Positions 4,562 to 10,713 of a stretch of DNA of 31,584 bases are shown one piece after another; position 1 is the first letter of the stretch; every line of letters starts with the position of its first letter. A program made the position numbers and the translations under genes. The notes under the pieces are model-generated. The model did not search any database. It worked only from the letters and a program-made list of their open reading frames with translations, and had not been told where the DNA came from. This DNA comes from a virus. The stretch covers positions 1 through 31,584 of the IMG/VR virus record IMGVR_UViG_3300030104_002123, one strand, 5' to 3'.

Positions 4562-6238
4562 ATGAAAAAGTTCAAACCAACAAAAGTTAAACCGCAACAA
4601 TCCAATGATTATGGATTATCGAAAAAAACTACGGCTAAGACCCGTATGATGGTACTAGACGACAGGCTAATCTCCAAACAATATATAACATCTAAATTAG
4701 ACGCAAGAATAGATGATACAACCTACGGTGATGGTTGGGACGGTGTAACGGATAGAGCACCGTCAGTCAATGCAGTATACGATAAGATTAATTCTATGGG
4801 TGCTACATCTGACGTATGGACAAGGGAAGATTCGAGTTCTGATGCCAGAGTAAGAACAAACAAAACTGGTTTTTATGGTTTTGGTAATTCTACTGACATG
4901 GCATTTACTGAGATAACACATAAATGTACCATAGATGGTGATTTAAGAGTAGGAGCTATAGATGGCTCTACTAAAGACATATACCTAGATGACGGAGTGC
5001 AATTCTATAAATATGATGCATCAAGCTCTACTAGTATGTTACATCTTAACTCATCTAATGGAAACAAGTCTCCTATAAATTTTGCTATCGGGAGCACAAA
5101 TCCGACAGTTCCTTTAGAGATTAACAAATCTGAAGGTAGTGCATTAGATTTAAATGACGGAACAGGGCTATTCCAAATTGGAGCCGATGGTGCAGCTAAT
5201 ATAGGTATGAACGCTACAAAGATACAAGCCAGAGATGGTAGTGGTAGTGGCTCTACATTATTAGTAAACGCAGCTGGAGGAGATGTAAAATTAAGTAATG
5301 GTTCAGGTACCGTTACTGTAGAGAATGATTTAGTTGTAGATGGTAATTTAACAGTTAGTGGTACAGCTACTTCTGTAAATACCGAAACTATAACACTAGA
5401 TGATAATATTATAGTTCTTAATAATAATGAAACTGGTACACCATCTGCTAATGCAGGTATAGAAGTAGAAAGAGGTACCGCAACTAACAGGTCTTTAAGA
5501 TGGAATGAGACAACGGATAAGTGGCAGATACAAACAGGTGATAGTACCTATGGTGATATAGCTACTGGTGGTGGTTCGGTTGAAGGAACTGTTGCTGCTG
5601 GTGCAAGTGTATCTGGTTCAAACACTGGTGACGTAACTTTGTCTGTTGCAGGTACTGTTCCAACTGGTGCAATTAGTTTAAGTAATCAGGTAGTTACATT
5701 TGGTGACAAGTTTATTTATAACGAAGGTACTGGTAACGAACTTGGTGTAGATGGCGGGGCGGATGGAAAGCTTGCTATCTTTGGAACTACAGGTGGTTCA
5801 GGTACAAACGCTCTTACACTGAAAGGTGGTAACTCAGCAGCGTCGAATCCTGCACTAACTATTACAGGACATATGGAAGCAGATACCAAATCTTTTAATA
5901 TTCCACATCCTATCTATGATGATAGGAGATTAGTATATGGTGCCCTCGAAGGTCCAGAGTATGGAGTTTATAATAGAGGAACCGTAGAACTAGATGTATT
6001 TCCAGAACGTATACCTATAGAATTACCTAACTATTGGTTTAAACTATGTGGTGCTGATTATACTGTAACACTAACCCCATATGGACCATATAACGTTTGG
6101 ATAGATGAAAAAACAGAAGATGGATTTTTTGTTTGTACTTCAGCAGAAAGTAATGTCAAATTTGATTGGATTGTAACTGGCGGACGTAAGGACGCAATAA
6201 TACCGGAGGTTGAACCACTATGGCACAAGAAAGAATAA
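4562..6238 (+). CDS. Tail-fibre-like adhesin with marine-phage C-terminal domain
   Basis: This 558-residue protein begins with a short basic N-terminus, then a Ser/Asp/Gly/Thr-rich beta region. Residues ~255-338 contain [30 protein letters not shown] and [13 protein letters not shown], a fibre module I recognise from marine tailed phages. Residues ~443-545 form a separate domain with [20 protein letters not shown], a Tyr/Trp motif in [10 protein letters not shown], and [12 protein letters not shown] near the end, matching a C-terminal module of cyanophage structural proteins. The likely role is host attachment or a decoration fibre. It follows the capsid gene and overlaps the collagen-like gene by 19 nt, so the two may be translated together and form one appendage. 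AGGAG at 4553-4557 supports the start. The exact virion location is unknown. Confidence 0.75.
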
Positions 6239-9200: not shown

Positions 9201-10713
9201 TGGTGGTACTGGTGACAAAGGACAGAAAGGTCAGAAAGGACAAACTGGAGGCGCAGGACCAACAGGTCCCGGTGGTCCAGCAGGTTCTGATGGTAGTGAC
9301 GGTTCTAAAGGACAGAAAGGTCAAAAGGGACAAAAAGGTCAAACAGGTTCAGCAGGTTCTGACGGTAGTGACGGTTCTAAAGGACAAAAGGGTCAAAAAG
9401 GTCAGAAAGGACAGACTGGTGGTACAGGACCAGCAGGTCCTACAGGTCCAGCAGGTTCAAATGGTTCTGACGGTAGTGATGGTTCTAAAGGTCAAAAAGG
9501 ACAAAAGGGACAGACTGGTGGTACAGGTGCAGCTGGTGACAAAGGACAAAAAGGTCAAAAAGGTCAAACTGGTGGCACAGGACCAGCAGGTCCAACAGGT
9601 CCCGGTGGTCCAGCAGGTTCTGATGGTTCTGATGGTTCTGATGGTTCTAAAGGACAAAAAGGTCAAAAAGGACAAACAGGTGGCGATGGTCCAGCAGGTC
9701 CAACAGGTCCCGGTGGTCCAGCAGGTGGTACAGGACCAACAGGTGACAAAGGACAAAAAGGTCAGAAAGGACAGAAAGGACAAACAGGTTCTAATGGTTC
9801 TGATGGTTCTGATGGTAGTGACGGTTCTAAAGGACAAAAGGGACAAAAAGGTCAGAAGGGACAAACAGGTAACACAGGTCCAACAGGTTCTACAGGAGGA
9901 ACTGGTCCAACAGGTCCAACAGGTGCAAAAGGACAGAAAGGACAAGCAGGTAACAATGGTTCTGATGGTTCTGATGGTTCTGACGGTTCTAAAGGACAAA
10001 AGGGACAAACTGGAGGAGCAGGTCCTACAGGTCCAGCAGGTCCTTCAGGTCCAGCAGGTTCAAATGGTTCTGACGGTAGTGACGGTTCAAAAGGACAGAA
10101 GGGTCAAAAAGGTCAGACTGGTGGTACAGGACCAACAGGTAGCACAGGTCCAGCAGGTCCAACAGGTCCAACAGGTCCAACAGGTCCCGGTGGTTCTGAT
10201 GGTAGTGATGGTTCTGATGGTTCTAAAGGACAGAAAGGACAGACAGGTGGCACAGGTCCATCAGGTTCAACAGGTCCAACAGGTTCTAAGGGACAGAAAG
10301 GACAAACTGGTTCATCTGGTTCTAGTGGTGGTACAGGTCCTACAGGTGCTAAAGGACAGAAAGGACAGACTGGTTCAGGTTCAACAGGTCCATCAGGTTC
10401 TAAGGGACAGAAAGGACAGACTGGTGGTTCAGGTTCAACAGGTCCAACAGGTCCAGCAGGTCCAACAGGACCAACAGGTCCTACAGGTCCTACAGGTCCA
10501 AGTGGTGGTGGAGGAAGTGCCCCAGCATTTACCGCAGACGCATCACTCGGAATGACGGATTCTTTAGGAGGGCCAATTACGATAAATGGTGCAGCAGCAG
10601 GACCAGTAATACACAATCACCCACCAATGACAGGTGCAGGAAATCCAGTAGGTTATTTAGCATTTGTAGCTACTAACGGTCAGACATACTACGTACCAGC
10701 ATGGAGTCCATAG
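6220..10713 (+). CDS. Giant collagen-like fibre protein with an inserted globular domain
   Basis: This 1497-residue protein consists mostly of Gly-X-Y triplets. Residues 1-54 are a short non-collagen head with an [17 protein letters not shown] segment. Collagen block 1 (~55-575) and block 2 (~697-1427) flank a ~120-residue beta-rich domain ([19 protein letters not shown] to [13 protein letters not shown]), a module I recognise beside collagen repeats in other phages. The last ~68 residues form a non-collagen tip containing [20 protein letters not shown]. The triplets are mainly [12 protein letters not shown] and GAK: Thr and Lys, not Pro, fill the Y position. Block 1 is interrupted four times by GADSSVAG, which breaks the triplet register. 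A trimeric rod at ~0.29 nm per residue would be ~150 plus ~210 nm. GGAGGT at 6205-6210 supports the start. The probable role is a long surface or tail appendage. Confidence 0.88.
6379..7940 (+). repeat. Tandem 9-nt-based repeats, collagen block 1
   Basis: Degenerate 9-nt units such as GGACAAAAA and GGTCCAACA recur without interruption, except for four copies of the register-breaking unit encoding ADSSVA near 6682, 6946, 7362 and 7878. Synonymous GGA/GGT and CAA/CAG alternation keeps copies from being identical. The array is coding, not a separate element. Length changes in multiples of 9 nt by slippage or recombination are expected. Confidence 0.9.
8309..10500 (+). repeat. Tandem 9-nt-based repeats, collagen block 2
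   Basis: This is the second and longer coding repeat array. Higher-order cassettes repeat here: a run of GSD triplets, then SKGQKGQKG, then QTG, then a GPT/GPA run. Near-identical copies span tens of bases, for example around 8575-8660, 8755-8830 and 9480-9560. It lacks the ADSSVA interruptions seen in block 1. The cassette structure suggests growth by duplication of units larger than 9 nt. Confidence 0.9.

Follow-up and report, generated by a model that had tools for sequence, protein, structure and literature searches.

A giant lysine-rich collagen-like protein of a tailed virus and putative collagen-modifying enzymes in its relatives

A collagen-like protein with abundant lysine in the Y position of its Gly-X-Y triplets is encoded by the virus record studied here, a 31,584-base stretch from IMG/VR that was analysed as a whole and is called the window below. 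With a rough probability of 0.7, we consider this protein to be a virion fibre that is hydroxylated and glycosylated on its Y-lysines by viral enzymes, as judged from sequence comparisons with related contigs, cultured phages and known collagen-modifying proteins.

Results

A portal, an HK97-type capsid protein and a tape measure protein, by which membership of the Caudoviricetes was judged, were all found in the window together with tail genes (Table 1). The major capsid protein had no match among GenBank phages. A capsid search of viral contigs returned 58 relatives, about 20 of which bear a collagen ORF in the same place, the complete ones having 1003, 1793 and 2339 codons. The collagen gene lies just 3' of the capsid and fibre genes and 5' of connector genes, a neighbourhood that makes the head, the neck and the tail all possible sites for the fibre. 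No tRNA gene was found in the window, and one tRNA-Glu was found in the relative G007. Two small proteins were also noted. A 74-residue ORF running over the collagen stop (10701-10925) has a charged N-terminal helix and a hydrophobic C-terminal stretch, resembles by eye an XhlA-type holin or a membrane protein, and is about 95% identical in G001 and G006. A very basic 98-residue protein (13346-13642) falls in PHROG 7595, with kin in Synechococcus, Roseobacter and Vibrio phages and an unusual degree of conservation across marine phages of different host groups (identity up to 73.5%).

Table 1. Positions of the principal features in the window (Gly-X-Y runs of at least four triplets counted).
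Feature	Position	Strand	Basis or remark
Archaeal TATA-box-like element, TTTATATA	437..444	+	30-37 bp 5' of portal start codon
Portal protein	474..1751	+	
Major capsid protein, HK97 type	3420..4487	+	
Neighbouring fibre/structural protein, 558 aa	4562..6238	+	19-bp overlap with the start of the collagen ORF
Collagen-like fibre protein, 1497 aa	6220..10713	+	ORF, Pfam, triplet count
N-terminal non-collagen domain, residues 1-54	6220..6381	+	Conserved in L006/L007
Collagen block 1, residues 55-580	6382..7959	+	Runs of 34, 28, 45, 56 and 7 triplets
SSVA interruption 1, residues 157-160	6688..6699	+	
SSVA interruption 2, residues 245-248	6952..6963	+	
SSVA interruption 3, residues 384-387	7369..7380	+	
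SSVA interruption 4, residues 556-559	7885..7896	+	
Predicted folded beta-rich module, residues 581-697	7960..8310	+	AlphaFold pLDDT 94.8
Collagen block 2, residues 698-1434	8311..10521	+	Runs of 230 and 15 triplets
C-terminal tip, residues 1435-1497	10522..10710	+	Conserved in relatives
Archaeal TATA-box-like element, TTTATATA	15876..15883	+	5' of gene 15940-16557
Class II ribonucleotide reductase, C-terminal end	31141..31584	-	Cut by record end

The existence of a 1497-residue collagen-like ORF, which the original prediction had proposed, was confirmed by a verified open frame, a match to Pfam PF01391 (Collagen) with E=1.1e-152, and 415 Gly-X-Y triplets distributed over seven runs, of which the longest comprises 230 triplets, compared with a mean of 5.7 and a maximum of 13 in 200 shuffles. 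The layout of two collagen blocks flanking a module and ending in a distinct tip also held, but the first block is not the continuous array that had been described, being broken by four identical SSVA interruptions into five separate runs. The collagen blocks are predicted to form a triple-helical rod. The axial rise of collagen is 0.286 nm per residue, and the calculated rod length is about 356 nm if fully helical, in keeping with the several hundred nanometres once suggested. The non-collagen N-terminus is the probable attachment end of the fibre, and the tip is probably a trimerisation or receptor-binding head. For the module, predicted to fold as a beta-rich domain, Foldseek gave no significant match in the PDB and the best VIA-align Z of 6.7 lies inside the unrelated range; it does have relatives in Pelagibacter phage HTVC010P and in further collagen fibres. 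Overall, the idea of a giant collagen-like virion protein is supported, here on a tailed virus.

An origin of the repeat array, or of its length, in faulty assembly seems extremely improbable, even though the contigs of many relatives break off inside the collagen gene and the 67-kb record G008 has both its ends there. The 4.5-kb frame stays open, and the gene recurs in the same place, with the same N-terminus and module, in relatives that were assembled independently; moreover, varied codons and the lack of any exact repeat of 120 bp mean that the array is no obvious artefact. The exact number of triplets in the window could still be wrong.

The commonest triplets are GQK (109), GPT (59), GQT (43) and GSD (40), the same four that had been named as dominant, and the use of Thr or Lys instead of Pro in the Y position, noted at the outset, is borne out by counts of 151 Thr, 155 Lys and no Pro. 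The X position is free of Lys. Stabilisation by Lys-Asp pairs, another suggestion made at the outset, fails in its classical axial form: none of the 155 Y-lysines is followed by G-Asp or G-Glu (153 are followed by G-Gln), so that the lysines are not placed for such a salt bridge and KGD/KGE pairing is ruled out as the stabiliser. Prolyl hydroxylation as the main stabiliser is unlikely, given the absence of Pro from Y, although relatives do carry further 2OG oxygenases. Glycosylated Thr may be an alternative chemistry on the fibre; hydroxylysine glycosylation is the likely one, because relatives encode collagen-modifying enzymes. Other collagens of the same virus group (L018:7632-10259, also L030, L034 and L035) have Gly-X-Y runs of at most nine triplets alternating with a regular spacer.

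Upstream of the ribonucleotide reductase (RNR) gene, relatives encode a lysyl hydroxylase, a GT25 glycosyltransferase and a PLOD-type glycosyltransferase. The hydroxylase (L068:400-1005) matches human LH3 with E=2e-25 and mimivirus L230 with E=1e-21, values that reach 1e-34 and 3e-31 with the family profile, and the Fe-binding HxD...H and the 2OG-binding Arg are invariant, pointing to a putative lysyl hydroxylase of LH3/L230 type. The GT25 gene (L082:1018-1842 in record G008; PF01755, E=7e-21) encodes a candidate collagen galactosyltransferase of COLGALT type. For the PLOD-type glycosyltransferase, Pfam GT_PLOD scored above cut-off in G001, the profile matched mimivirus R699 (4e-12) and LH3 (2e-8), and the DxxD and the UDP-binding Trp are invariant. 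This protein (L068:2748-3551 and relatives) is nevertheless not collinear with the glycosyltransferase domain of LH3 and R699: the HxNGPxK segment is N-terminal instead of C-terminal, suggesting a circular permutation, and the specificity may therefore differ. An AlphaFold model of it was poor (pLDDT 53) and was set aside. Three further 2OG oxygenase-like genes, one of them DUF6445, lie between hydroxylase and glycosyltransferase (L082:2454-4173, L068:1008-2745). Near the cassette, G008 also has a GT25-FkbM methyltransferase fusion and a gene with a weak sulfotransferase match (L081:14776-16116, L082:5245-5871), the products of which may further decorate the same glycans.

The window record ends inside the RNR gene, before the position that the cassette occupies in relatives. 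Among contigs reaching far enough upstream, the two closest to the window by RNR are L091 (97% identical) and G018 (94%), and both carry all three enzyme genes; the window virus itself is therefore predicted to carry the cassette just past the cut end. Collagen and cassette occur together on single contigs in G001, G006, G007 and G008, while the collagen type of the window is joined to the cassette on no single contig among the records compared.

Lysyl hydroxylase modifies the Lys of X-Lys-Gly, a residue that occupies the Y position. In the hydroxylase-bearing clade, where the enzyme is encoded by the virus itself or by a close relative, Y-Lys makes up 14.7-50% of triplets (37.3% in the window), compared with 0-2.6% in 10 collagen-bearing sister viruses with no detectable hydroxylase, and X-Lys is 0% throughout the clade except in G002 (0.2%). 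Since the records of this archaeal-type family are related, the covariation within it amounts to few evolutionary events. Three sister viruses without hydroxylase (G033, G040 and G044) have collagens in which Lys takes 8-11% of the X positions and hardly any of the Y positions. On a T4-like phage contig (G011), a different glycosyltransferase-hydroxylase fusion lies beside a collagen with 11% Y-Lys; the genes there (L172:9954-13522) run from collagen through a 2OG oxygenase and a GT2-like gene to a fusion of GT4 and lysyl hydroxylase, which makes a third way of arranging such genes.

The hydroxylase search also led to Roseobacter phage CRP-6 (MK613348), in which gp58, annotated as hypothetical, is by homology a fusion of GT25, PLOD-type glycosyltransferase and lysyl hydroxylase (COLGALT1 2e-5, LH3 about 1e-22, L230 3e-7); its PLOD-type segments are in the usual order, unlike those of the window's relatives, and a collagen with 26% Y-Lys lies two genes before it. 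The paper describing CRP-6 (PMC6918029) mentions neither the collagen nor the hydroxylase. Eighty metagenomic loci with the fusion were found, and a collagen ORF was present at all 40 of those with at least 4 kb of upstream sequence. In the 64 fusion loci with a collagen, Y-Lys has a median of 23.6% and X-Lys is close to zero; one of them (L290) has 3.4% Y-Lys in a glycine-rich ORF that is probably something other than a fibre. The fusion likewise adjoins fibres with 37-44% Y-Lys in the cultured cyanophages S-CAM9, S-PRM1 and S-8S55, so that four cultured phages have the three activities, by homology, in one protein near a lysine-rich collagen fibre.

A sample picked by the folded module rather than by the enzyme comprised 78 collagen loci in 41 clusters, of which 36 had Y-Lys below 6%. 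The other five reached at least 10% in some ORF. Two of them belong to the window clade and two carry the fused enzyme; the fifth is L389, which has 11% (3/27) in a small ORF and no enzyme on its 38.7-kb fragment. L408 was first recognised as a lysine outlier, one of its five collagen-like ORFs being lysine-rich, and the fused enzyme was found afterwards in the full record (E=1.9e-135). Collagens with Y-lysine also occur in organisms that lack the enzyme.

Discussion

Under the mechanism proposed, the ORF product would be a collagen-type triple-helical rod with the SSVA breaks as flexible hinges and one folded module, anchored to the virion by its N-terminus and bearing the tip at its far end. 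A virus-encoded lysyl hydroxylase of LH3/L230 type would hydroxylate the Y-lysines, and a GT25 galactosyltransferase followed by a PLOD-type glucosyltransferase would then produce Gal- or Glc-Gal-hydroxylysine. Single chains would be modified before they trimerise from the tip and fold into the helix, which is the order established in collagen biology. Likely gains would be stability and solubility without hydroxyproline and resistance to proteases, and the sugar coat could aid adhesion to the host or act as a shield from it.

The main competing view, which we regard as rather improbable, is that of an unmodified phage-type collagen fibre of tail or head, in which Y-Lys provides charge or solubility and the enzymes target host glycans, virion proteins or DNA. 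Viral collagen fibres without such enzymes are indeed common and 2OG oxygenases are widespread in marine phages, yet this view leaves unexplained the linkage of fusion and collagen at 40 of 40 loci, the restriction to Y of a lysine that is near-absent from enzyme-free collagens, and the combined likeness to LH3, R699 and COLGALT1 in one protein. A variant in which the lysines are hydroxylated alone or carry another decoration (for example galactose only, or a sulfated or methylated sugar, in place of Glc-Gal-hydroxylysine) is doubtful but deserves somewhat more weight, given the PLOD-type domain that is non-collinear with LH3 and R699 and, in G008, the fusion of an FkbM methyltransferase with a GT25-like domain and the weak sulfotransferase match; against it, the DxxD and Trp that R699 requires for activity (PMC9546862) are conserved in the PLOD-type glycosyltransferase.

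An archaeal host is likely for the window virus, given archaeal TATA boxes, PolB and absent sigma-70 motifs. Of 240 upstream regions in the window and its relatives, 45 contain TTTATA and 52 contain TTATAT (15.6 expected for each), while TATAAT matches its expected frequency and TTGACA falls short of it; relatives encode a family-B polymerase (PolB) and have a motif match, with no Pfam hit, to an archaeal-type primase. Compared with the Magrovirales (90-110 kb, PolB, archaeal-like primase), PolB is present in relatives, the primase is seen as a motif, and G008 measures 67 kb. The archaeal assignment made originally therefore gains from promoters and polymerase, but no matching host genome was found and the 98-residue protein is cyanophage-like. 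A single-protein RNR scan of 84,980 genomes gave no host match; the profile scan of the same genomes gave only RNRs about 50% identical and mostly bacterial, which is uninformative for the host, as is the search for the thaumarchaeal marker AmoC, for which the control was silent too. A bacterial host, to which the nearest cellular RNRs, the 73.5% identity of the 98-residue protein to Synechococcus cyanophage S-CBS2 (it is also close to roseophages) and the module common to the window protein and HTVC010P might be taken to point, is unlikely in view of PolB and the strong enrichment of TTTATATA-type promoters and the lack of enrichment of TATAAT and TTGACA; such phage-like genes are compatible with sideways exchange.

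The known precedent for viral hydroxylysine glycosylation is mimivirus (PMC9546862; also Luther et al. 2011, cited in PMC8968730), the collagen system of which comprises L71 and other collagens, the combined lysyl hydroxylase and glucosyltransferase L230, the demonstrated collagen galactosylhydroxylysyl glucosyltransferase R699 and the putative R655 (PMC9546862). Like mimivirus, the viruses described here encode, by homology, a collagen, a lysyl hydroxylase and a PLOD-type glucosyltransferase. Mimivirus is, however, a giant virus of amoebae, whereas these are tailed dsDNA viruses of prokaryotes, and the window's relatives differ further in having separate small genes, a clear GT25 gene and a rearranged domain order in the glycosyltransferase. 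The same three activities, again by homology, are those of animal LH3/PLOD3 and COLGALT1, but the genes are split in the window's relatives and joined as GT25, glycosyltransferase and hydroxylase in one polypeptide in phages, and the viral system operates without an ER on a collagen without Pro in Y.

A review of prokaryotic collagens (PMC8968730) portrays those of phages as short stretches and most of those of prokaryotes as lacking modification. Collagen-like tail fibres of phages (PF01391; PHROG 8745, 6320, 5073 and 1806) likewise place a Gly-X-Y fibre in the virion structural module; that of the window is unusually long and rich in Y-Lys, and its relatives have modifying enzymes. CRP-6 gp58-gp60 (MK613348; PMC6918029) resembles the window's relatives in combining a collagen with Lys in Y and a GT25/PLOD-type glycosyltransferase/hydroxylase enzyme, and differs from them in its bacterial host and fused enzymes. 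A literature search, with most subscription journals outside its coverage, returned no report linking a tailed-virus collagen with a lysyl hydroxylase.

Conclusions

On balance it seems probable that tailed viruses of archaea and bacteria across the ocean make Glc-Gal-hydroxylysine collagen on their virion fibres with enzymes of their own. The pathway would then be split in archaeal-type viruses and fused in phages, and therefore no speciality of animals and giant viruses; it may have been transferred between viruses and cells. Small stand-alone enzymes adapted to prokaryotes could be useful for producing glycosylated recombinant collagen. If the proposal is true, a complete collagen lysine-glycosylation pathway would exist in very common marine viruses, cultured phages included, and direct tests would become possible of its chemistry, of how it affects the stability of a triple helix that lacks hydroxyproline, and of where animal LH3 and COLGALT came from.
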